Shown: in pieces, positions 1 to 9,406 of the stretch
Layout of the letters: each line of letters begins with the position of its first letter
Numbering within the stretch: the first letter of the stretch is position 1
Assembly: GCA_934597345.1 (NCBI GenBank)
Contig: CAKTRJ010000029.1
Coordinates: forward strand, 1-32,783
Direction of reading: 5' to 3'
From: an uncultured Oscillospiraceae bacterium
GTDB taxonomy: Bacteria; Bacillota; Clostridia; Oscillospirales; Oscillospiraceae
Length of the DNA stretch: 32,783 nt
Notes under the pieces: model-generated
The model's database searches: none
Seen by the model: the letters and a program-made list of their open reading frames with translations, nothing else
What the model was told of the DNA's origin: nothing
Made by a program: the position numbers and the translations under genes

Positions 1-632
1 GTAACGGTCACATAGGCACTGACCTTGAAGGTCACGTCCTCGGTGATAGTGGTGCCGTTCACGGCGTCCTCCCGCCATACGGTGGCGTTGATCTTAAAGG
101 GCACGGCATAGCGTCCCTTGCTGGCGAACTCGCTGATCTTGAACTCGAACCACACCTCCGCCGTGGAGTTGTAGGACATATCCTTTAAGCGCTGCACATC
201 GCTGGCGTAGATCAGCTCAAAGGGCCAGTTGGACACGCTGGCGTCGGTAGGCACATCGGGATAGATGTTGATGCTGCGCAGCATGTATTTCTCGCTGGGC
301 AGATATTCCTTGTTGACCGCCAGCGGCAGCACGATCTTCACCACCTGACCGGGAACGCCTTTGGGGGACTGTGCGCCGGTATCCATCAGGATCAGGGCGT
401 TGGCGTCGCTGGGTATGACCTTGATATCCGTGTTGGGCTTTTCGTCCGTAACCGAGACCCCGCTGACGCCGGCATCCTCTCCGTTTTCGTAAGACGTGTA
501 AGCCTCAATGGTGCTGTCATCTATCACATCCTCTGTGACTTCTTCCGCCATAGCGACGGCGGGCAGCAGGGATACTGTCATCCATACGCAGATCAACAGG
601 GCCAGTACCCGTTTTACCGTTTCTCTTTTCAC
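1..632 (-). CDS. Secreted protein, N-terminal part (cut by window edge)
   Basis: The reading frame is open from a GTG at 632-630 to the window edge (210 codons), so only the N-terminus is visible. The first ~28 residues are a signal peptide: a basic start (MKRETVKR), a hydrophobic core (VLALLICVWMTVSLLP) and an AMA-like cleavage site. The mature part is acidic at first, then rich in alternating beta-strand segments, as in the Ig-like/S-layer-associated proteins often encoded beside MacB-type exporters. I cannot name a domain. The GTG overlaps the TGA of the upstream ATPase gene (GTGA, 4 bp), so translation is probably coupled. It is the last visible gene of the 5626-to-1 operon. It may be the extracytoplasmic partner of an FtsX/MacB-like permease outside the window; that is inference. 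Confidence 0.75.
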   Translation of the reverse strand, partial: MKRETVKRVLALLICVWMTVSLLPAVAMAEEVTEDVIDDSTIEAYTSYENGEDAGVSGVSVTDEKPNTDIKVIPSDANALILMDTGAQSPKGVPGQVVKIVLPLAVNKEYLPSEKYMLRSINIYPDVPTDASVSNWPFELIYASDVQRLKDMSYNSTAEVWFEFKISEFASKGRYAVPFKINATVWREDAVNGTTITEDVTFKVSAYVTV

Positions 633-1348
633 TGTGCGTTCTCCTCTCCGGTGTGGTGATTTTCTATCTCTATCTTTCCGTCACTGAAATAGACGGTACG
701 ATCCGTGTAACGCTGCATCTGCGGGTCATGGGAGCTGAGGATGAAAGTGGTGTTCCGCTCCCGGAAGATCTCGCACAGCAACTCCATGACCTCCTGGCCG
801 GTACGGCTGTCCAGATTCCCGGTAGGCTCGTCCGCCAGCACGATGGAGGGCTCCGTAATAATGGCCCGGGCGATACTGACGCGCTGCTGCTGACCGCCTG
901 ACAGCTCCGCAGGCCGGTGATCTACGTGTCCGCGCAGTCCCACGCGGCTCAGGGCCTGCCACGCCAGCCAATTCCGTTCATCCTCCGGTACGCCCCGGAT
1001 GGCCAGCGGCAGTGCCACATTCTCCAGTGCCGTATACTGGGGCAAATTATTGTAGTTCTGAAAGACGAAGCCGATATAGCGGCGGCGGAACCTTGTCCGC
1101 TGCTCCTCGTCCATAGCCTCCAAATGATGCTTGCCTCGGACAATGATCTCCCCCTCCGTGGGCGGCTCAAGACCTGCCAGCATATTCAGCATGGTGGACT
1201 TACCGGAGCCGCTGCGGCCTGCGACACAGACAAATTCGCCTTGCAGCACGGACATGTCCACGCCATCCAGCGCACGAACCGTGTTGCCGCCGACGGTGTA
1301 GTGCTTCTTCAGCCCCACCGTCCTGATGATCGTTTTTCGTTCACTCAT
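629..1348 (-). CDS. ABC transporter ATPase, MacB/LolD type
   Basis: This 239-residue protein is a complete nucleotide-binding subunit. Walker A is GRSGSGKS at residues ~44-51, the Q-loop is near FQNYNNLP (~97-103), the signature LSGGQ is at ~149-153, Walker B is IVLADEP at ~169-175 with D-loop GNLD, and the switch His is in SSHDP. The Gly-Asn-Leu-Asp after Walker B and the overall length are typical of the MacB/LolD/FtsE group, which works with FtsX-fold permeases on lipoprotein, peptide or macrolide transport or on mechanotransmission. No such permease is visible, so it may lie beyond the left edge. The ATG at 1348 overlaps the S-component stop by 8 bp and the gene's TGA overlaps the next start. 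Linkage to an ECF importer in one overlapping operon is unusual, because ECF modules already carry their own ATPases. Confidence 0.9.
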   Translation of the reverse strand: MSERKTIIRTVGLKKHYTVGGNTVRALDGVDMSVLQGEFVCVAGRSGSGKSTMLNMLAGLEPPTEGEIIVRGKHHLEAMDEEQRTRFRRRYIGFVFQNYNNLPQYTALENVALPLAIRGVPEDERNWLAWQALSRVGLRGHVDHRPAELSGGQQQRVSIARAIITEPSIVLADEPTGNLDSRTGQEVMELLCEIFRERNTTFILSSHDPQMQRYTDRTVYFSDGKIEIENHHTGEENAQ

Positions 1349-2270
1349 AGTTCTCTCTCGCTATCTCAAATGTGGAGGGCGGCAGCACATAGTTCCGCTC
1401 CTCCGCCGTCAGGCCGAATTTGATCTTGATGCGCTCCAGCTTCCGTACCCACGGGTCGCCCAGTGCCCACAGCACCAGAAACGTACACAGCCCGTGGCAG
1501 AAGTCGAAGAAAAAGCTGGATAGATAGGCCGCGCCTATCGTCTGCCAGGTAAGGGGGCTTACATACCCGATGATGAAATACAGGTTCATGATCCAGCCGT
1601 ACAGAAAGCCGGACAGGAAACCATAAAGGCACAGCCGCAGGGGCGCGTGGTCGGTAAGCTGCCGCACAAAATGCAGCAAATCGCCCCGGTTGGTATTCTC
1701 CGGACACAGCCTGTCCCACCATTGCGCCGCAAAGTGACGGCGGCTTCCTCCCTTGAATGCACCTGCATTTTGCAGGATACCGGCCAGAAAGCCCACCAGA
1801 CCCCAGGTGAACATCTGCCACGGCGTCCATGGCCCTTGCCCGAAGATGAAGTTGCTGACAAAGCCTGTCAGTGCGCCGGTGAGGAAGCCCGCCTCCGGCC
1901 CGAAGGCCACCGCCGTAATGATAATGATGGCGGAGCAGGGCTTGAAGTTGGGCAGGGGGATGATCTCGAACACGGTGCGGCCCACAACGCCAATGGCCGC
2001 CATCACCGCGATGGGCACCAGTTCACGGGCCTGAGGCTTCTTCTTATCAAATACCAGAACGAAAGGGATAGCGGAGGCCAGCAGGAACAGCAGGCCCAGC
2101 AGAATATCCGAATTCAGGATGATGTAATCCCAGAAGGTACGGGAGCCCACTGGATTGACCGCGGGGCGATGGCTGTGGTAATAGCCGAAGGCCACCATCA
2201 GGGCGGGCAGTACCAGAAGGATCACCCACGCGGCGGCTCTGGTGCGTTTGCTAACAAAGAGCTTCGACAC
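1341..2270 (-). CDS. ECF transporter S component (substrate-binding membrane protein)
   Basis: This 309-residue integral membrane protein has about six to seven hydrophobic segments and ends in a charged cytoplasmic tail. The central stretch with KPCSAIIIITAVAFGP and GFLTGALTGFVSNFIFGQGPW is typical of ECF S components, which bind a vitamin or cofactor and dock on the EcfT/EcfA module. The start is GTG at 2270, inside the 3' end of the A-component gene (49-bp overlap), and is preceded by a near-perfect GGAGGTGATC ribosome site. The substrate cannot be read from sequence. The DUF4430 lipoprotein of the same operon has the fold family of the transcobalamin C-terminal domain, so a corrinoid is a reasonable but unproven guess. 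Confidence 0.85.
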   Translation of the reverse strand: MSKLFVSKRTRAAAWVILLVLPALMVAFGYYHSHRPAVNPVGSRTFWDYIILNSDILLGLLFLLASAIPFVLVFDKKKPQARELVPIAVMAAIGVVGRTVFEIIPLPNFKPCSAIIIITAVAFGPEAGFLTGALTGFVSNFIFGQGPWTPWQMFTWGLVGFLAGILQNAGAFKGGSRRHFAAQWWDRLCPENTNRGDLLHFVRQLTDHAPLRLCLYGFLSGFLYGWIMNLYFIIGYVSPLTWQTIGAAYLSSFFFDFCHGLCTFLVLWALGDPWVRKLERIKIKFGLTAEERNYVLPPSTFEIARENYE

Positions 2271-3874
2271 GACGCGATCACCTCCTCACAGGTAATGTCC
2301 GTGGGGAAATGCTCCGCCGCGATGCGGTTGGCGTCGGTGGTATAGAAGCGGTTGCCCGCGAAGAAAGCGTGAGGCTCGCCCTCAGACAGCAGCAGGCCAT
2401 CAAACATCAGGGCGCAGCGCGTGGCGTAGCGGGCGGCAAACTCCACATCGTGGGTCACGATCAGGATGGACGTGCCGTCCCGACACAGCGCCTGCAGCAG
2501 CTTTGCCAGCTCCGCCTTGGCGTAGGCGTCCAGTCCCTTGGTGGGCTCGTCCAGCAGCAGCACCGTGGCCTCACGCAGCAGCAGCTTACCTACCGCCAGA
2601 CGTTGGATCTCACCGCCGGACAGGTCGTAGGGGTGCCGCGCCAGCAGGGGTGTCAGTTCCAGCTTCTCCGCCATCTGCATGGCCTTAGCCTGATCCTGAC
2701 CGGCGCTGTCCAGCAGCTCCTTTTCCACCGTATCGGCCACGAACAGGGAGCGTGCGTTCTGGGGCAGCATACAGAGCCGCTGTCCCTTCGATAGCTTCAC
2801 CTTGCCACGATAGGGCTTCTTGAAGGTTGCCAGCGTTTGCAGCAGCGTGGTCTTGCCCGCGCCGTTGCCGCCCAGCAGGCACAGCAGCTCGCCCTCCCGG
2901 AGCGTCACGTCTGTGCCCCGCAGGATGTCTTTGCTTTTTTCGGTATATCGGAACCAAAGCTCCTTGCCCTCTAAAACAACAAGGCGCTTTGCTTCTTTCT
3001 CAGTCTTTTGCGAATCAGGCGCGGCAGGCTCCTCCGTGATGGGCAGCAGCCGCTCCAAGCGGCGGCGGCCATCCCGCACCGTCAGGGGCAGCTCGTCCGT
3101 CTGCTCCAGCTCGCTGAAAATGCGGACAGCAGCGGGAAGTCCGAAGTAAATGCGGCTTTTCTCCGCGCTGCCGGACAGCTGCCACGCAATCTCAGCCGGT
3201 GCGCCGTCCGAAAGGATGCGGCCCTTGTCCATGGTCACTACACGATCGGCGGCGGGGAATACCTCGTCCAGCCGGTGTTCTGTCATAAAGATGGCAACAC
3301 CCAGTTCGCGGTTGATCCGCTGGACGGTGGCAAGCAGGTTGCGGGCGGCCAGCGGGTCTAACATGGAGGTTGGCTCGTCCAAGATCAGCAGCTTCGGCCC
3401 CATAGCCAGCGCCGAGGCCAGATTCATCAGCTGCTTCTGGCCGCCGGACAGCTCCGTGGTCTTGCTGCGGAACCATGTCTCCATGCCGAAAAAAGCGGCC
3501 ATCTCCGCCACACGGCGGCGGATCACGGGAACAGGCAGGGCCATATTTTCAAGGCCGAAGGCCAGCTCATGCCACACGAAATCGGTGACGATCTGGTTAT
3601 CCGGATTCTGCTGCACGAAGCCGATCTCCGCCGCGGCGGTCAGCTCCGGCAGCTGAGAGAGAGGTTTTTCCTTATAAAAGGTCTCGCCGGCCTTTGCCCC
3701 AACAGGCAGCAGGCCGGGCTTGGCATGGCGCAGAAGTGTGGTCTTGCCGCAGCCGGAGGGGCCGCACAGCACCACATACTCGCCTTTCTGTATCTCCAAT
3801 GTCACTTCGTCCAACGCCCGCGTTTCGGCCAGCGGGTAGGCGAAGCTCAGTTGGTCAAACCGTAAGAGCGCCAT
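2222..3874 (-). CDS. ECF transporter energizing ATPase, two ATPase domains fused
   Basis: This 550-residue protein carries two complete ABC ATPase domains, equivalent to EcfA1 and EcfA2 in one chain. Domain 1 has Walker A GPSGCGKTT at ~38-46, signature LSGGQ at ~142-146 and Walker B LLILDEP at ~162-168. Domain 2 has Walker A GGNGAGKTT at ~335-343, signature LSGGE at ~418-422 and Walker B VLLLDEP at ~438-444. A charged linker (~255-300) joins them. Such fusions are known in the YkoD/EcfAA type. It powers uptake by the S component through EcfT. The ATG at 3874 follows AAAGGAGGGCATCAG. It overlaps ecfT by 28 bp upstream and the S gene by 49 bp downstream, so the three subunits are very probably translated as a coupled set. 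Confidence 0.93.
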   Translation of the reverse strand: MALLRFDQLSFAYPLAETRALDEVTLEIQKGEYVVLCGPSGCGKTTLLRHAKPGLLPVGAKAGETFYKEKPLSQLPELTAAAEIGFVQQNPDNQIVTDFVWHELAFGLENMALPVPVIRRRVAEMAAFFGMETWFRSKTTELSGGQKQLMNLASALAMGPKLLILDEPTSMLDPLAARNLLATVQRINRELGVAIFMTEHRLDEVFPAADRVVTMDKGRILSDGAPAEIAWQLSGSAEKSRIYFGLPAAVRIFSELEQTDELPLTVRDGRRRLERLLPITEEPAAPDSQKTEKEAKRLVVLEGKELWFRYTEKSKDILRGTDVTLREGELLCLLGGNGAGKTTLLQTLATFKKPYRGKVKLSKGQRLCMLPQNARSLFVADTVEKELLDSAGQDQAKAMQMAEKLELTPLLARHPYDLSGGEIQRLAVGKLLLREATVLLLDEPTKGLDAYAKAELAKLLQALCRDGTSILIVTHDVEFAARYATRCALMFDGLLLSEGEPHAFFAGNRFYTTDANRIAAEHFPTDITCEEVIASCRSSLLANAPEPPRG

Positions 3875-4740
3875 CTGATGCCCTCCTTTGTCTCAAGAAT
3901 ACCGGGCAGGAACATCAGCACGGCGTAGAACGCGAACATGGTATAGCTGGCACTGCCCAGCACCACCGGCGTCATGGCGGGATAGAACTCCATAGTACCA
4001 TGCCCGAAGGCGCGGGCGGTGATGCAGATGCCCGCCACCGACAGGATAAGGCCCAGCGTTCGGGCATCCCGACTGTCAAAGCGGAACAGGTGGAAGGTGG
4101 TACGCCGCTTGGCACCATAGCCCCGGGCTTTCATGCTGTCCGCCGTCTCCACCGTCGCCTCCATGCTCATGGTCAGCAGCACCGACAGGTTCCGCAGGGC
4201 GCTGCCCAACCTTTGCAGCAGGCGCGTACCTTCTTCCTGTAACATGGCCTGAGACTGCCGGATCTCGCGGCGGTTTTGCTGAAGCTGGGGGATGAACCGC
4301 AGCGTCATGGTGATCAGCAGCGATGTGCCAGGGAAGGGCTTGCCGAAGAGATACAGGAACTTATCCGAGGTCATGACCTCCTGATAGCAGGTGAACCACA
4401 TGATGACTGCGCACAGGGAGCAGCCGGACACCAGACCGTAGCACACCGCTTCCAGCGTGTACCACAGGTGGTTGATGGTAAAGAGCATGGTCACGCCCCG
4501 ATGGTTGAATAGCGGATTGGCAAGGGCAATCAGCAGAAACATAGGCCCCACAAACCGCATGGTGTGGCCGTAGGCCCTCCAGCCTCGCAGCCGGATGGAA
4601 AACCAGCTGGCGCCCAGGAACGACAGCACCACCGTGACCGGGTGCATACAGGCCAGTGTCAGGCCCAGAACCAGTACGAAGTACGCCATACTGACCGCCG
4701 GATGCAGGTTCCCGAAGAAACGCATCCGGGTATCAGTCAT
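3847..4740 (-). CDS. ecfT: ECF transporter T component (transmembrane coupling subunit)
   Basis: This 297-residue membrane protein with about five to six hydrophobic segments is of the EcfT/CbiQ family. The diagnostic feature is the Ala-Arg-Gly coupling motif in SMKARGYGAKRRTTF, which contacts the ATPases; the second copy of that motif is not clear. I place the start at ATG 4740-4738 (MTDTRMRFFGNL), because the frame further upstream translates to low-complexity shadow of the neighbouring gene. This start overlaps the lipoprotein gene's TGA by 8 bp. The C-terminus overlaps the start of the fused ATPase gene by 28 bp. It forms the scaffold on which the S component turns during import. Confidence 0.88.
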   Translation of the reverse strand: MTDTRMRFFGNLHPAVSMAYFVLVLGLTLACMHPVTVVLSFLGASWFSIRLRGWRAYGHTMRFVGPMFLLIALANPLFNHRGVTMLFTINHLWYTLEAVCYGLVSGCSLCAVIMWFTCYQEVMTSDKFLYLFGKPFPGTSLLITMTLRFIPQLQQNRREIRQSQAMLQEEGTRLLQRLGSALRNLSVLLTMSMEATVETADSMKARGYGAKRRTTFHLFRFDSRDARTLGLILSVAGICITARAFGHGTMEFYPAMTPVVLGSASYTMFAFYAVLMFLPGILETKEGIRWRSYGLTN

Positions 4741-5626
4741 GGTTATCCTTCCATTCCTTGCCGTAGCCGTAGGGATCTCCGTTTTCCAGATCGCAGCCGA
4801 GGTCGCAGGTGTAGTTCCACTCAATGACCTCGCCGGGCTTGACGAAGTACACGCCGCAGCCGTAGTTGGGATACCAGTCGTTGACACAGTACATCCAGCC
4901 GCTCCAGCGGCCGCCGTCGAATTCATAGAGGTTATTGATGCCATCCACATAGCAGCCACTGGAGGTACCGCCCCGATAGGACATGTGGATCTTATATTTG
5001 TCGCAGACATAGGAGAGGACATCAAAGACCGTATCGCCCTCCTTGATCTCCACCGTGGTCACCGGCAGGATCACGCCGGAGGCGGGGACGATACCCGCCC
5101 ACTTGCTTTCCAGATGCATGCCGTTATTCACCGCCGTATCGCAGCGGATGGTGATGGTGACGGTGTTCTTCTTGCTATCCGGCTTCTGCTCCGGTGTGGG
5201 CGCGGGGGTATTGTTATCCTCGGGCTTCTGGTCGTTCTTCTTGCTGTCGTCCTTCTTACCGTTGGAAGTAGGCGCTGTATTGGTGACTTCCTCCTCCGGT
5301 GTTGTATCAGCACTCTGGTCTGTCTTGCTGCCCTTGTTGCCCTGGGGCGTGTCCGCGTCGCCCTGGGTATAGAAATCCGCCACGCTGTCAGGCTTGCTCT
5401 GGGACGGAGTGGTTGTTGTCTCCTTCTTTCCGAAGCTGAAAGCGTCCGTGATCCAGGAGTACCACGGCTTTTCCTCTTCCGGCTGGTCAGTTTCTTCGCC
5501 TACATAGTCCAGATCCAAGCCGCCGTTGCTGCCGCTGCCAGTTCCGGTCTGAGCGCAGGCGCACAGGCTCAGCAGCATCATGAGCGCCAGTATCGACGCG
5601 ATGATATATCTTAAATTCTTTTTCAT
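4733..5626 (-). CDS. Lipoprotein with C-terminal DUF4430 (transcobalamin-like) domain
   Basis: This 297-residue protein starts at ATG 5626, preceded by GAAGGAGATAAC. A lipoprotein signal peptide ends at Cys22 or Cys24 (LSLCAC). Residues ~25-170 are a low-complexity spacer rich in Asp, Glu, Lys, Thr and Pro. Such spacers lift a domain off the membrane through the wall. The C-terminal ~125 residues (VTITIRCDTAVNNG, DVLSYVCDKYKIHM, GCYVDGINNLYEFDGG, SGWMYCVNDWYPNYG, DLGCDLEN) match DUF4430, a beta-grasp domain related to the transcobalamin/intrinsic-factor C-terminus. It is the first gene of the ECF operon and so probably captures the ligand for that importer. This inference rests on operon position and fold family; no ligand residue is identifiable. 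Confidence 0.85.
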   Translation of the reverse strand: MKKNLRYIIASILALMMLLSLCACAQTGTGSGSNGGLDLDYVGEETDQPEEEKPWYSWITDAFSFGKKETTTTPSQSKPDSVADFYTQGDADTPQGNKGSKTDQSADTTPEEEVTNTAPTSNGKKDDSKKNDQKPEDNNTPAPTPEQKPDSKKNTVTITIRCDTAVNNGMHLESKWAGIVPASGVILPVTTVEIKEGDTVFDVLSYVCDKYKIHMSYRGGTSSGCYVDGINNLYEFDGGRWSGWMYCVNDWYPNYGCGVYFVKPGEVIEWNYTCDLGCDLENGDPYGYGKEWKDNHD

Positions 5627-5658
5627 GTTATCTCCTTCAGTCCCGTTCCGGGCTGTTA

Positions 5659-5710
5659 TTTTTGAGGTTGGCGGGAGGGGCCGGCAAACCCCTCCCGCTC
5701 TATGGGAAAG
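5659..5710 (-). repeat. Intergenic hairpin repeat, copy 1
   Basis: A 10-bp GC-rich palindrome (GCGGGAGGGG at 5671-5680 pairing with 5689-5698) lies upstream of the DUF4430 gene. On the minus strand it is preceded by CCATAG and followed by CCTCAAAAA. Copies 2 (5739-5788) and 3 (13022-13088) share this frame around different stem sequences, so structure rather than stem sequence is conserved. It may end transcription or shape the 5' leader of the operon. Confidence 0.6.
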
Positions 5711-5738
5711 ACTACGGCATATGCCGTCTCGGTTTGGC

Positions 5739-5788
5739 TTTTTGAGGAAGTGGGGATGGGGCGGCTTAAGCCCCATCCCCTATGGAAA
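5739..5788 (-). repeat. Intergenic hairpin repeat, copy 2
   Basis: Palindrome GGGGATGGGG (5752-5761) pairs with CCCCATCCCC (5771-5780). On the minus strand CCATAG stands before it and CTTCCTCAAAAA after it, the same frame as copy 1, which lies 34 bp away. Confidence 0.6.
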
Positions 5789-5790
5789 GC

Positions 5791-5814
5791 AGACAGTCTC
5801 CGTTCAGACTGTCT
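5791..5814 (-). terminator. Hairpin overlapping the stop of the HNH-repeat gene
   Basis: AGACAGTCT at 5791-5799 pairs with AGACTGTCT at 5806-5814 and spans the stop codon (5804-5806). On the minus strand only a weak T stretch follows (GCTTTCC), so termination efficiency is uncertain. Confidence 0.45.
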
Positions 5815-6352
5815 CAGCTTGACTGGGGGATGTTCCTGCTGGTTCCTGTGTCTGCGCAGCTTTTTCTGCTTCGCGCTGGCAGGCTGCTGTGTCGCGGGCT
5901 TCTTTTTTCTCCCGCTCCCGTTTTTCCTTCAGCTTCGCCTCCTGCGCGGCGCGGCGAATGGCGGATCTGGCTCGTTTTTCTTTCTTTTTGCGCTCGGATT
6001 CCTCGAAAAACAGCGGCTCCTGTATCTTCTTTTCCGCCCGGTAACGGGCGGTCTCCTTCAGCTGCAATACCTTTCTCACAGGCGGCAGCTCTGCCATTTC
6101 CAGCGCCGCTTCCCAGCTGCCGAAGCGCTGCTCGATAAACGCGCCGCCGTCCACCTCGCAGGGAGAGGGCGTATGCCGCAGCAGTCCAGCGTTGCGGGCC
6201 AGATACTGCGCCAGCTCATTAAGCGGCGTCTCCGCGTGTTCTTCGGCAAAGGCCGCGTCGCATTCCGCCAGTGCTGCCTCCGTGCGCTTGACCACATTGC
6301 GGTCAAACCAGCTCTTATAATTAAATTTTTCCCGTGGGTGTCTGTTGGACAT
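5804..6352 (-). CDS. Small basic protein with a homing-endonuclease-associated repeat
   Basis: This 182-residue protein starts at ATG 6352 behind AGGGAGGAGTATATCC. Residues ~45-90 carry the pattern of the HNH/homing-endonuclease-associated repeat (ELAQYLARNAG, TPSPCEV, then FIEQRFGSWEAALEMAEL). That small helical module is thought to bind DNA and is often found apart from any nuclease. No HNH catalytic motif is present. The C-terminal half (~95-165) is a highly charged Lys/Arg/Glu/Ala helix, possibly a coiled coil, and the tail is polar. It lies 20 bp behind a terminator and downstream of the non-coding RNA on the same strand, so its expression may depend on read-through from that RNA or from the invertible promoter. 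A role in nucleic-acid binding is inference. Confidence 0.65.
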   Translation of the reverse strand: MSNRHPREKFNYKSWFDRNVVKRTEAALAECDAAFAEEHAETPLNELAQYLARNAGLLRHTPSPCEVDGGAFIEQRFGSWEAALEMAELPPVRKVLQLKETARYRAEKKIQEPLFFEESERKKKEKRARSAIRRAAQEAKLKEKREREKKEARDTAACQREAEKAAQTQEPAGTSPSQAETV

Positions 6353-6371
6353 GGATATACTCCTCCCTTAC

Positions 6372-6404
6372 AAAAAATCGCCGGTTTTCCAAAGAAAACC
6401 AGCG
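6372..6404 (-). terminator. Intrinsic terminator before the HNH-repeat gene
   Basis: The 11-bp stem at 6379-6389 pairs with 6394-6404 (one mismatch), with a 4-base loop, and six T follow on the minus strand (6377-6372). It is the second terminator in tandem after the RNA's own at 6421-6448 and stands directly before the Shine-Dalgarno of the gene starting at 6352. Confidence 0.8.
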
Positions 6405-6420
6405 GTGATCCGGCAGAAAT

Positions 6421-6448
6421 AAAAACACGCTGACGACCCTCGTCAGCG
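6421..6448 (-). terminator. Intrinsic terminator of the non-coding RNA
   Basis: A perfect 9-bp stem (6428-6436 with 6440-6448) has a 3-base loop. On the minus strand GTG and then five T (6425-6421) follow. Confidence 0.85.
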
Positions 6449-6760
6449 CGCACTCCTGCCTATGCCGTCAGGGAGAGAGCGCCCGCTGTACAACACTGAT
6501 CCTCCATCGTGCAATTCTTCTGCCCTAACGTCATGAAGGACTTTTGTCCTTCTCGTACCTGAACCTACCTTCTCAGAGCGTTCGCTCCAATGGCTGCTAT
6601 TCGCCACACGGCATTTCTGCCGCTTTGGTTCATTCCTTACGTCAACAGCGCCGTCCGCAGGGGGTATTACCCCGTTCCTTCAAAACTGCCACCTGACGAT
6701 CTCTCGCCTTTACAGTGACAGCCACACGACTTCGCAAGATCTTATTTACTTGTCTGATAT
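6421..6760 (-). ncRNA. Large structured non-coding RNA (~340 nt), possibly raiA-type
   Basis: This stretch has no convincing reading frame. It is bounded by a TATAAT box (6767-6772) and a strong terminator (6421-6448), both on the minus strand, which gives a transcript of about 340 nt. Several local hairpins are visible in the RNA sense: GGGG-TAATA-CCCC (about 6661-6673), CGGC-AGAAAT-GCCG, GAGCG-AA-CGCTC, and AAGGAC-AAAA-GTCCTT (6534-6549). Long-range pairing is also possible: TCGTCAG in the 5' third matches the CTGACGA arm of the terminator. I found none of the landmarks of tmRNA, SRP RNA, RNase P, 6S, T-box or cobalamin riboswitch. The raiA motif of Bacillota and Actinobacteria is my best guess from size, terminated form and taxon, but I cannot confirm it. 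It lies just outside the left repeat of the invertible recombinase cassette. Confidence 0.6.
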
Positions 6761-6766
6761 GGATGA

Positions 6767-6793
6767 ATTATACTGTTGGAGTATGCGCATACT
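6767..6793 (-). promoter_or_regulatory. Promoter of the non-coding RNA with a 14-bp perfect palindrome
   Basis: The minus-strand -10 box TATAAT is at 6772-6767. The -35 is poor (best TTCAGT at 18 bp). Where a -35 would lie there is a perfect 14-bp palindrome AGTATGCGCATACT (6780-6793), a candidate operator or activator site. On the plus strand the same region holds TATACT with an upstream TTTACT at 18 bp, which could drive the recombinase gene divergently. Confidence 0.6.
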
Positions 6794-6820
6794 GAAAGAT
6801 GCCGACAGGCAGCCGGTGTA

Positions 6821-6846
6821 TTTCGTAAATCAAACACAATTTACGA
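6821..6846. repeat. Left recombination-site repeat (IRL) of the invertible cassette
   Basis: This 26-bp sequence is the exact reverse complement of 8236-8261. Internally it is two 8-bp inverted arms, TCGTAAAT (6823-6830) and ATTTACGA (6839-6846), around the asymmetric 8-bp spacer CAAACACA (6831-6838). That is the core-site layout of tyrosine recombinases. Identity stops at both ends of the 26 bp. Confidence 0.9.
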
Positions 6847-6874
6847 TAGTATAATGACACAAATTCCGCTTCCT

Positions 6875-6903
6875 ACTATACATTGTTTCGTAAAGGAAGT
6901 CAA
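6875..6903 (-). promoter_or_regulatory. Outward-facing promoter inside the invertible cassette
   Basis: On the minus strand there is TTGACT (6903-6898), a 17-bp spacer, and TATAGT (6880-6875): five of six consensus bases in each box at ideal spacing. It reads leftwards across IRL towards the non-coding RNA. A further half-site-like TTTCGTAAA lies within its spacer (6886-6894), so bound recombinase could repress the promoter. Confidence 0.75.
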
Positions 6904-7055
6904 CGGGAAAACCGGAAAAATTGCGGAAAAGCTCAAATTTCCTGTAGGACCGTGAAAAGAAACTGTTAAAAATTCCAAAAATTGGAAATCACATTTTGGA
7001 AACGCTGTGCTGTCTCATTTTTTGCCGTCAGGATCATCGTCAAGGAGGGAAGTTT

Positions 7056-8252
7056 ATGCCACGTCGCGGAGAGAACATCTACAAACGGAAGGATGGCCGG
7101 TGGGAAGGCCGCTATATTCGCGGCCGGACACCTGCCGGAAAGGCAGAGTACGGATATGTTTATGCCAGGAGCTATACGGCCTGCCGTGAGAAGCGGCGGA
7201 AGATGGAAAAAGCCATCCCGCAGAAATCTGTTCTAACAGGTGAAATGTCTGTGGCTCAGGCGGTTTCGTTCTTTCTGTCAGACCGTCGCGGCGAACTGAA
7301 GGCTTCGACCATTGGACGCTATGCGTATATGACCAGCCATTATATCATTCCGGAGTTGGGAACGGTCATGCTTCATGAGTTGACGCCCGAAAAGCTTTCT
7401 GCGTTTTTCAGGCAGCTGCAAGACGGAGGATTGTCATGCAAAACCGCAAGGGATATCGGCGTGCTGCTAAAGACCATTTTCAAAGTTGTAAAGAAGAAAT
7501 GCCGGTGCGATTGCCCCGGCCGGGATGCGGAACTGCCTGCGTATCGGGGTAAAAAGGTCGAGGTATTTGCCGATCACGAGATAGCCGCGCTGGCACAGAA
7601 GGTGTTGGAAACGCCGGACATCACGGGACTGTGTATTCTATTGGTCTTGAACACGGGACTGCGGCTTGGCGAGATCTGCGCCCTGCGCAAAAGCGATATC
7701 GACTATCGCTCCGGCTTTCTGCGGATCGAGCGCTCAGCCGCCCGTGTGCGGGACACATCGGGAACTCGCTTGACCGTGCAAGCCCCGAAAAGTTCCAGTT
7801 CCGCACGTCTTGTGGCGATCCCCAACGACATGCTGGAACTGCTGGAAACGACCACGCAGCACATCCGGAGCGACAACTATCTGTTGACCAATACGGACAC
7901 GCCGATGGAGCCGCGCACACTGCAATACCGGTATCGGAAGCTGCTGGAGCGCTGCGGTATCCGTTATCGGAATTTCCACGCACTTCGACACACCTACGCG
8001 ACCCGGTGCATGGAAAATGGCGTGGACATCAAGAGCCTAAGTGAGCTCTTGGGCCACGCCGATATCCGGACGACTTTGCAGACGTATATTCACTCTTCTC
8101 TGGCCCACAAAAGGCAGGTGGTTCAGAGCATATGCTTCTTGCCCGTTGAAGGTGCGTGCGGCGTTTTAGTTCCGTCAAAAAATCCGTCAGAACTGTCAGC
8201 AAACACTGTATTGTCCAGCGAATCAGAAGCCTGCTTCGTAAATTGTGTTTGA
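7056..8252 (+). CDS. Tyrosine recombinase (integrase family) enclosed by inverted sites
   Basis: This 398-residue protein starts at ATG 7056 behind AAGGAGGGAAGTTT. The N-terminus (RGENIYKRKDGRWEGRY) is the AP2-like arm-binding pattern of Tn916-type integrases. A core-binding SAM-like domain covers ~65-150 and the catalytic domain ~170-350. The catalytic residues are all visible: Arg203 (GLRLGE), Lys245 (APKSSSS), His308 and Arg311 (HALRHT), His334 (LLGHAD) and nucleophile Tyr344 (TYIHSS). A 50-residue tail follows the Tyr. The last codons run into the right inverted repeat. No excisionase, relaxase or cargo gene lies nearby, so this is not a usual integrative element. It most likely acts on the two flanking 26-bp sites and inverts its own gene. 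Confidence 0.93.
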   Translation: MPRRGENIYKRKDGRWEGRYIRGRTPAGKAEYGYVYARSYTACREKRRKMEKAIPQKSVLTGEMSVAQAVSFFLSDRRGELKASTIGRYAYMTSHYIIPELGTVMLHELTPEKLSAFFRQLQDGGLSCKTARDIGVLLKTIFKVVKKKCRCDCPGRDAELPAYRGKKVEVFADHEIAALAQKVLETPDITGLCILLVLNTGLRLGEICALRKSDIDYRSGFLRIERSAARVRDTSGTRLTVQAPKSSSSARLVAIPNDMLELLETTTQHIRSDNYLLTNTDTPMEPRTLQYRYRKLLERCGIRYRNFHALRHTYATRCMENGVDIKSLSELLGHADIRTTLQTYIHSSLAHKRQVVQSICFLPVEGACGVLVPSKNPSELSANTVLSSESEACFVNCV

Positions 8253-8261
8253 TTTACGAAA
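8236..8261. repeat. Right recombination-site repeat (IRR) of the invertible cassette
   Basis: Exact reverse complement of 6821-6846. The arms are TCGTAAAT (8236-8243) and ATTTACGA (8252-8259), with spacer TGTGTTTG (8244-8251). The recombinase TGA (8250-8252) straddles the spacer/arm border, so either orientation keeps the same stop codon. Confidence 0.9.
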
Positions 8262-8282
8262 ACAGAACTTTGTGTGATCTCA

Positions 8283-8310
8283 CCGCAGGCGCCTGTGCCT
8301 GCGGTTTTTT
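8283..8310 (+). terminator. Intrinsic terminator just outside the right repeat
   Basis: A perfect 8-bp stem CCGCAGGC (8283-8290) pairs with GCCTGCGG (8297-8304), with a 6-base loop and six T (8305-8310). It ends recombinase transcription now. In the flipped state it would stop the cassette's outward promoter. Confidence 0.9.
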
Positions 8311-8779
8311 CGTCCGTCGTTTCTGGTGATCGGATCGCCGCAGTAAGCACAGTCGTTTCTTTAAAATTACCACGCCTTTCGCGCGAATATTGTCGGAATA
8401 AGTAATATGGCGGTAATAATTGTCAAAATATGGACATGGTTCCCCTCAAAGCGCAGCCGTTGAACAGACAGACGTGCAAGCCACTCTCCGCAGCGAGGCT
8501 CATCCCCAACCGCCGGAAATGCTCAGAACAGAAAAAACTCCCATGCCGCGCGGCACGCGCAGTATGGGAGAGGCTCCTCACGGAAGCGCTGATACGCTCC
8601 CTCCATGACCGGCAGTCTTTCACTGTCTTTCACAGAGAGAGCGTATCATCTGCTTCATGAACTTTGGTACCATTGATCCACAAAGGCAGACACGGTTTTG
8701 GCGGATAAAAATACGCCCGTACCGCATCAAGCCCCTTGGCAATTGCAAACATTCACCGCCGGTCTTTTCCTGCCCGAAT
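8311..8779. other. Gene-free spacer between cassette and cytidylate-kinase-like gene
   Basis: No supportable gene is present. It holds a TTGACA on the minus strand (8426-8421) with only a weak -10 near 8400, the minus-strand terminator at 8532-8570, and a partial copy of an intergenic repeat at ~8666-8785. The remainder shows nothing recognisable. Confidence 0.6.
8532..8570 (-). terminator. Terminator of the liv operon
   Basis: CTCCCAT (8538-8544) pairs with ATGGGAG (8564-8570), enclosing a GC-rich inner palindrome. Six T follow on the minus strand (8537-8532). It stands 210 bp after the last gene of the livKHMGF operon. Confidence 0.8.
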
Positions 8780-8785
8780 TCAGGT
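8666..8785. repeat. Partial copy of the MITE-like repeat
   Basis: About 120 bp align by eye with 13104-13225, for example TACCATTGAT versus TACCATCGATT, GGCAGACACGGTTTTG versus GGCAGACGCGGTTTTG, and the later CGCATCAAG-CCCTTGGCAAT block. The right end of the element is missing: the copy runs into the end of the cytidylate-kinase-like gene. Confidence 0.6.
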
Positions 8786-9406
8786 AAACAGCGGCAGGAG
8801 CTTCTGAATAAGCGCCACGCAGCCGTCCTCGCCCAGCTGCTCGGAGTCCAGCGACAGGTCGTACCCTGCGGCGTCCCGCCATTCCTCGCCGGTATAGTAG
8901 CGGTAATAGGCGGCGCGGCGCTTGTCCTCGGTGCGGACATACTTTGCCACCTCGCGGCCGCTCCAGGCCAGAGAATAGGACGCCACACGGGCCAGACGGG
9001 CCTCCAGCGGCGCGTGGACAAACAGCCGCAGCAGTCTGACATTGGGCTGATCCATCAGAAGATAGTTGGCGCACCGGCCCAGAATGATGCAGTCCTCCGT
9101 GGCGGCCAGCTCCTTGATGATCTTCGCCTGAAAGCTGAACAGGTTCCGGGTGGAGATGAAATCGTTGCTGTCCGGCGGCAGAATTTCGCCGGTATAGACC
9201 TTTTCCGCGGCGGAAAGCATCTCCTTCCAGCCGATGCGCTCATCCGCCGCGCCGAAAAGCCGCTCGTGGATACCGCTGACCTCAGAGGCCTTGCGCAGCA
9301 GGTCACGGTCATAATAGGGGATGTTCAGCTTCTCGGACAGCTTGCGGGTAATGTCGTGGCCGCCGCTGCCGGTCTCCCGGGCGACTGTAATGACAAAATG
9401 ATCCAT
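8780..9406 (-). CDS. Cytidylate kinase-like family protein
   Basis: This 208-residue protein starts at ATG 9406 behind AGGGAGGAGTAGCT, 13 bp after livF. The N-terminus has VITVARETGSGGHDI, which fills the P-loop place in the cytidylate-kinase-like family (PF13189 type) but is not a standard GxxGxGKS. Arg-rich lid-like stretches (RLARVASYS, TEDKRRAAYYRYYTG) follow, as does CIILGRCANYLL. Family members occur widely in anaerobic Firmicutes, often beside transporters. The true substrate is not established and I would not call it Cmk. It is the last gene of the liv operon, so it may phosphorylate something linked to amino acid supply, or merely be co-transcribed. Confidence 0.85.
   Translation of the reverse strand: MDHFVITVARETGSGGHDITRKLSEKLNIPYYDRDLLRKASEVSGIHERLFGAADERIGWKEMLSAAEKVYTGEILPPDSNDFISTRNLFSFQAKIIKELAATEDCIILGRCANYLLMDQPNVRLLRLFVHAPLEARLARVASYSLAWSGREVAKYVRTEDKRRAAYYRYYTGEEWRDAAGYDLSLDSEQLGEDGCVALIQKLLPLFT

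Follow-up and report, generated by a model that had tools for sequence, protein, structure and literature searches.

A predicted self-contained invertible promoter cassette with its own tyrosine recombinase beside a likely vitamin B12-uptake operon in an Oscillospiraceae bacterium

The whole stretch of DNA analysed here, 32,783 nucleotides in length and hereafter called the window, in all probability carries a self-contained invertible promoter cassette that acts as a phase-variation switch for a likely B12-uptake operon. Judged from the sequences compared, inversion of the segment by the recombinase that it encloses is very likely, and control of B12 by the switch is likely. We infer that the switch is active in the strain of the window and turns transcription ON and OFF.

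Organization of the cassette

The features of the cassette and its right-hand border are as follows.

6821..6846, no strand: left core site, 8-bp arms and 8-bp spacer CAAACACA; exact inverted repeat
6875..6903, minus strand: outward promoter match TTGACT-17-TATAGT inside the segment, directed towards the left operon (sequence match)
7026..7042, plus strand: direct repeat CGTCA-N7-CGTCA, candidate arm-type binding site (from sequence)
7056..8252, plus strand: tyrosine recombinase of 398 aa inside the predicted invertible segment (PF00589, E 4.9e-28; fold matches)
8173..8189, plus strand: second CGTCA-N7-CGTCA repeat, in the coding sequence of the C-terminal tail (from sequence)
8236..8261, no strand: right core site, reverse complement of the left site, containing the recombinase stop TGA at 8250-8252
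8282..8305, plus strand: terminator-like hairpin outside the right site (from sequence; a similar one in the related locus L001)

The core site of the window, TCGTAAAT-CAAACACA-ATTTACGA, consists of two 8-bp arms with an asymmetric 8-bp spacer between them, and the left and right sites match as reverse complements at 26 of 26 positions. A preliminary description of this DNA had reported both the exact reverse complements at 6821-6846 and 8236-8261 and the 8-bp inverted arms around an asymmetric 8-bp spacer, which were seen in both sites. The arm pattern, with up to three mismatches allowed, occurred at these two sites only (0.02 expected), so that no further copy of the core site was present in the 32,783 nucleotides; the exact 24-bp core of the site was not found in the viral contigs. 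In integrative elements attL and attR are direct repeats at the element ends, and the sites of the window are inverted. It had also been stated correctly that the sole gene between the sites is an intact tyrosine recombinase and that its stop codon, kept by a flip, lies within the right site. The exact reverse complementarity of the sites means that gene, stop codon and sites would all emerge unaltered from a flip, and for this reason the switch would be reversible. This overlap of stop codon and site was shared by L001, L002 and L003 and was absent from most of the wider family, in which 3 to 315 bp, in most cases tens of bp, separate the stop codon from the site that follows it; the recombinase frame of L013 reads through the site.

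A Pfam search of the recombinase returned one match, to PF00589 (E 4.9e-28). Together with the conserved R, H, R, H and Y residues this places the protein among the tyrosine recombinases and phage integrases; it does not belong to the serine recombinases of the Hin/Gin family. Residues R203, H308, R311, H334 and Y344, which we take to be the catalytic residues, were invariant across 34 aligned sequences. Scores for the FimB/FimE-type invertase models fell below their cut-offs (PRK09870, 26.7 bits against 221; PRK09871, 20.5 against 222). The gene looks to have been kept by selection, because comparison with the 80% identical recombinase of L001 gave a dN of 0.12 and a dS of 0.89 (dN/dS about 0.13).

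The predicted structure of the recombinase had a mean pLDDT of 78, with three strands and a helix at residues 8-52 and a pLDDT below 50 in the C-terminal tail (residues 365-398). Its nearest solved folds were the Tn1549 integrase (best, E 3.9e-13), XerA and lambda integrase. N-terminal domains of this kind, predicted beta-sheet domains of integrase-like recombinases, bind arm-type repeats, and on this ground the CGTCA repeats may serve as arm-type sites for the N-terminal domain. Among 70 elements, CGTCA-N4-9-CGTCA on the same strand was observed upstream in 13, downstream in 23 and in both places in five (0 expected upstream, 0.05 downstream); none was found on the reverse strand. The cassette, previously described as a minimal one of sites and recombinase, is thus not quite minimal, in that it also carries the outward promoter match and the paired CGTCA repeats.

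The operon and its leader

Beyond the left site, the following features were found on the minus strand.

6493..6744, minus strand: leader RNA resembling a cobalamin riboswitch, beyond the left site (full-length match to RF00174, 22.4 bits)
6425..6451, minus strand: terminator-like hairpin of 12 pairs after the leader (from sequence)
6379..6404, minus strand: second terminator-like hairpin, before the first operon gene (from sequence)
5804..6352, minus strand: HNH_repeat protein of 182 aa, first operon gene (PF18780, E 1.7e-6; homologues beside related cassettes)
4733..5776, minus strand: DUF4430 protein, probably a lipoprotein from a signal recognized by eye (PF14478, E 8.1e-18)
3847..4776, minus strand: ECF transporter T component, inferred start (PF02361 CbiQ, E 5.4e-6)
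2222..3874, minus strand: ECF transporter double ATPase (TIGR04520, E 1.8e-90, 303 bits against a cut-off of 315)
1341..2270, minus strand: ECF S component, CbrT-like (PF07155, PF12822; best PDB match 6fnp_A, E 7.6e-9)
629..1348, minus strand: ABC transporter ATPase, end of the same-strand run (PF00005, E 7.3e-35)

After the leader hairpins the order of genes is HNH_repeat, DUF4430, CbiQ-like T component, double ECF ATPase, S component and ABC ATPase. The S, A and T components that make up an ECF B12 transporter of the CbrT type are present, with CbrT as the nearest solved S component; 6fnp_A is tied to ECF-CbrT by PMC5997447, the paper in which this code appears most often and whose subject is an ECF-type ABC transporter for vitamin B12. 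Because the leader matches the cobalamin riboswitch and the S component is nearest to ECF-CbrT, cobalamin is likely both as the ligand of the leader and as the transport substrate, and the genes likely form a B12-uptake operon. The HNH_repeat protein was modelled with a mean pLDDT of 87 and a long helix at residues 102-168, and a fold search with the model returned no similar solved fold (best E 6.8). As a guess, this protein might have a role in controlling inversion. A solved relative was also sought for the DUF4430 protein, and none was convincing (best E 0.38).

The full-length match of the leader to RF00174 scored 22.4 bits and so did not reach the gathering score of 31.5; its E values were 0.0015 in 721 bases and 0.00082 in 401 bases; the search used permissive filters, and both short stretches were chosen after the fact. 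Positions 6450-6750 had at first been read as an unknown RNA, as no Rfam match reached the gathering score, a reading given up for the cobalamin match below the cut-off.

In the switch proposed here, recombinase made inside the segment would bind both inverted core sites and invert the 1.4-kb segment; contacts of its N-terminal domain with the inner CGTCA repeats would probably assist the binding. The orientation drawn would be ON: leftward transcription from the outward promoter would cross the left site and run on through the riboswitch-like leader to the likely ECF operon for B12 uptake. The inverted orientation would be OFF, with the same promoter facing the terminator at 8282-8305.

Relatives of the cassette

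Of 7996 candidates scored in a protein search, 7558 were homologues, and 120 homologue clusters were listed. The recombinase of the window as sole query against genome_contigs confirmed no close relatives; a search of the same collection with alignment A1 found 385 relatives, the best of them 41-42% identical. Loci were drawn from phage, plasmid and genome collections, those from genome_contigs being the best 80 of the 385. Strong relatives were present in 6 of 400 sampled genomes of the family at E 1e-80 and in 1 of 20 in another sample, and relatives at E 1e-75 in 3 of 32 and 1 of 3 sampled genomes.

The 103 sequences with a recombinase match, window included, comprised 12 that were too short or truncated and 91 that could be tested. 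A flanking inverted repeat scoring at least 15 was observed in 79 of the 91, against a maximum of 13 in 91 shuffles; with near-identical copies counted once, the figure was 68 of 80. The 12 lacking such a repeat were L008, L009, L026, L027, L031, L034, L039, L040, L048, L072, L077 and L083. Flanking inverted sites were absent from all of the 14 other tyrosine recombinase matches (below 33% identity) that served as a control, L102 and L103 in this set looking alike. In 40 elements listed, the spacer was generally the same at both sites of one element, a sameness that partly follows from the repeat-finding procedure, and differed between elements.

The promoter match of the window, on the minus strand from 6903 to 6875, lies between the left site and the recombinase gene and reads out across the left site. 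Taken alone it proves little, because a scan of 6300-8700 found two promoter-like sites where shuffles gave 2.3, and it is the family comparison that carries the claim. An outward promoter with at most two mismatches was found in 51 of the 68 distinct related elements, with about 3 expected from shuffles, and an inward one in 3 of the 68. The score counted mismatches, plus half a point when the spacing differed from 17; the 68 elements share ancestry, and these and the other family counts are accordingly not independent.

HNH_repeat homologues, located by tblastn, were found at 21 of 112 loci. Removal of duplicates and of the variant locus L146 left 12 distinct loci in which the sites enclose the recombinase. 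The HNH_repeat gene was on the promoter side in eight of these (the window, L001, L002, L003, L006, L107, L109 and L112, the sites of the last tested as L121) and on the other side in four (L005, L111, L113 and L145), and it was oriented away from the cassette in all 12. Ten of the 12 had an outward promoter with at most two mismatches, and L002 and L145 had one with three. A terminator on the non-target side, tried as a family-wide feature, was rejected, being present in the scan at 2 of the 12.

A cobalamin-type match stood beside the cassette at 6 of the same 12 loci. RF00174 matches were above the cut-off at L109, L111, L110 (the same locus as L005) and L108, the last being without an HNH_repeat homologue, and below it at the window (22.4 bits), L003 (28.7) and L006 (29.1). 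With permissive filters no such leader was found in L001, L002, L107, L113 or L147, nor at the gathering score in L121. Seven leaders, that of L001 among them, aligned with 27 invariant columns, and similar leader core motifs were recognized by eye in L145 and L146. A further match in L111 (31.7 bits) lies left of the cassette and is oriented towards it. In L006, cobalamin-type matches slightly under the cut-offs flank the cassette on both sides and face outward (4421-4670 and 6533-6684). Tandem cobalamin riboswitches were seen in L118 (8182-8362 and 8559-8765) and L124 (2332-2570 and 2612-2790), with the weaker match adjoining the site and the strong one after it.

The neighbouring genes of the wider family were surveyed by a domain scan of 67 of 72 neighbouring frames. 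Those outside it (L099:2942-3490, L106:625-1128, L002:5605-5952, L111:2382-2666 and L108:3454-3789) looked like near-duplicates or doubtful frames. In the 25 of 72 families listed, HTH_3 was the most frequent domain (9), ahead of response regulator receiver (8) and LytTR (7); S-layer, kinase and transport proteins were further neighbours. First genes facing away within 900 bp numbered 45 on the right side and 27 on the promoter side of 69 loci. This right-side excess may mean that many assembled copies are OFF, or that many right-hand genes are non-targets.

Orientation of the cassettes

The preliminary description held that the enclosed recombinase inverts the segment, and relatives in both orientations support it. 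In the cleanest inverted pair, the Ruminococcus loci L066 and L071, the recombinases are 95% identical over 350 aa, and the flanks are swapped, aligning from the first base outside the sites at 93% over 622 and 85% over 1502 bases, so that a 136-aa reading frame is on opposite sides. L010 and L012 (91% identical) have a response regulator on opposite sides, their other flanks being without a match, and between L109 and L111 (61%) pieces farther from the cassette are swapped. L121 and L122, from one genome, are in opposite orientation. In related genomes, where a search for the inverted locus had been proposed at the outset as a check, orientation differed from one species or contig to another. 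Many related pairs nevertheless keep one orientation: the same orientation was seen in the window and L001, in L020-L025, in L010, L014 and L016, and in L028 and L035. The window itself was seen in one orientation, and that part of the earlier claim stands as a prediction.

This single orientation would also be expected of a once-active switch now frozen ON in the strain of the window. We regard that as highly improbable, given that the sites are identical over 26 bp, the gene is intact and dN/dS against L001 is about 0.13.

The lengths of short contigs bear on the same question. The longest contig measured 1400-1480 bp in 11 of the 120 homologue clusters listed, against 1 to 4 clusters in each of the remaining 100-bp bins from 1200 to 2080. 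The P0013 contig of 1446 bp compares with an L001 element of 1447 bp at 99.5% identity, and the P0063 contig of 1416 bp with an L002 element of 1417 bp at 90%; for P0050, P0052, P0053 and P0110 the nearest locus is only 57-64% identical. Element-length contigs would be expected if assembly breaks at the sites where both orientations are present, and several copies of an element could do the same.

They would therefore also fit a multi-copy element, and the recombinase might be the integrase of a small mobile element, with the inverted sites as its ends and inversion as incidental. The best fold match, to the Tn1549 integrase, and the near-identical cassettes in six genera (L020-L025) are consistent with this. 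The sites, however, are inverted and not direct, so that inversion is predicted; the outward promoter and the HNH_repeat neighbours recur; and L066 and L071 keep their locus while their flanks are swapped. A mobile element is therefore very unlikely, if marginally less so than a frozen switch, and the invertible promoter cassette remains the preferred reading.

The variant locus L146 has a different arrangement. At 2484-2664 a 123-bp segment lies between perfect 29-bp inverted repeats; it is free of genes and contains the promoter match TTGACA-17-TATACT. The recombinase of this locus (307 aa) is outside the segment and matches the query from residue 50 onward only. L146 had been considered a cassette like that of L145, which was rejected since the DNA has the recombinase outside the 123-bp segment, and it was left out of the 8-to-4 count. 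The segment precedes a leader that looks similar by eye, and an HNH_repeat gene. A target of the HNH_repeat type seems, from these sequences, to be served by a classical switch in L146 and by a self-contained switch elsewhere.

The segment might also invert while the left operon depends mainly on another promoter, inversion then serving the recombinase itself or distant sites. The outward promoter is a sequence match in a region where chance matches occur (two found, 2.3 in shuffles), and L066 and L071 are inverted even though their outward match is poor (three mismatches, 146 bp from the site). Against this, the outward match is the sole one listed on the minus strand in 6300-8700 and is conserved in the family, and L146 has its HNH_repeat gene and similar leader behind a segment with a promoter alone. 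We consider this the least probable of the alternatives, and the outward promoter of the cassette is retained as the probable switch for the operon.

Comparison with known systems

In the Hin-controlled H segment, bounded by inverted sites, an outward promoter drives genes beyond one site. Two features of the Hin type are found in the window: inverted sites enclose the recombinase gene, and the segment contains a promoter that reads outward, as judged by sequence match. The cassette would work like Hin and is not a Hin family member. It has a riboswitch-like leader before a vitamin-type ECF operon, and its tyrosine recombinase, with a predicted N-terminal beta-sheet domain, differs from Hin, a serine recombinase according to a passage of PMC11868660. 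The preliminary description considered a minimal cassette of sites and recombinase to be seldom described, the recombinase of invertible promoters normally lying outside or acting from afar. Precedents are nevertheless given in passages of PMC5903667, in which the Salmonella Hin gene lies inside its own invertible segment, as does the recombinase gene of the window, and an 844-bp segment of Providencia stuartii encloses a recombinase reading frame. The Providencia inverton, likened to the window by description only, is at a fimbrial locus and has 14-bp imperfect repeats (PMC5903667).

The RecV switches of Clostridioides difficile (cwpV, flg), also treated in passages of PMC5903667, share with the window a tyrosine recombinase, a place in the Clostridia and invertible regulatory DNA, which is predicted in the window; compared by description only, they differ in that one recombinase serves several switches. 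Tn1549-type integrases offer the best solved fold match (E 3.9e-13) and differ in that the recombinase gene of the window is flanked by inverted sites, pointing to inversion and not excision. In gut Clostridia, inverton group 139 is linked to nearby tyrosine recombinases, invertase group 35, in parts of PMC11892184. The likeness lies in Clostridial invertons tied to nearby tyrosine recombinases; those parts state proximity or intersection within 5 kb and do not state that the recombinase is inside the segment.

Passages of PMC11477304 and PMC11868660 showed no inverted B12 operon and no trace of this recombinase family, a term search of PMC10939037 gave no match, and the titles and opening lines of abstracts of the open-licence papers listed held no B12 operon under an invertible promoter and no mention of this family. 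On Tn916 arm sites, nothing useful was found among the papers listed. Within these sources, a tyrosine-recombinase family of self-enclosed switches with a B12 target appears to be new.

Gut communities are probably shaped in part by competition for B12, and the switch would for this reason be a directly testable source of hidden heterogeneity. If the proposal is true, B12 uptake is bet-hedged in some gut Clostridia, in which clonal subpopulations with or without the importer would exist on top of riboswitch control. The cassette family also offers compact self-flipping switches, which surveys may miss because contigs often end at such sites. More tentatively, and with somewhat less than even confidence, we suggest that these are widespread plug-in flip modules of gut Clostridia, each with its own arm-and-core-binding recombinase and outward promoter, placed next to many different targets (regulators, surface proteins, B12 uptake). 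In Oscillospiraceae stochastic inversion would have been coupled to a cobalamin riboswitch, and B12 would be taken up only where the DNA orientation and the ligand state are both permissive; the HNH_repeat protein switched on in this way may feed back on inversion.

Several further observations were made among the relatives. In P0011 a reverse transcriptase frame runs into the recombinase start directly after YMDD, which may be an assembly chimera; this joined sequence and P0181 were set aside as possible chimeras. L002 has a second recombinase of 307 aa, similar to that of L146, at 8290-9213, about 2.7 kb beyond its cassette. An Erm(B) methyltransferase gene at L024:6566-7354 (NF012220, 565 bits, scanned in L024) lies beside the cassette, and homologous frames occupy the same place in L020-L025, with all six flanks in one orientation.
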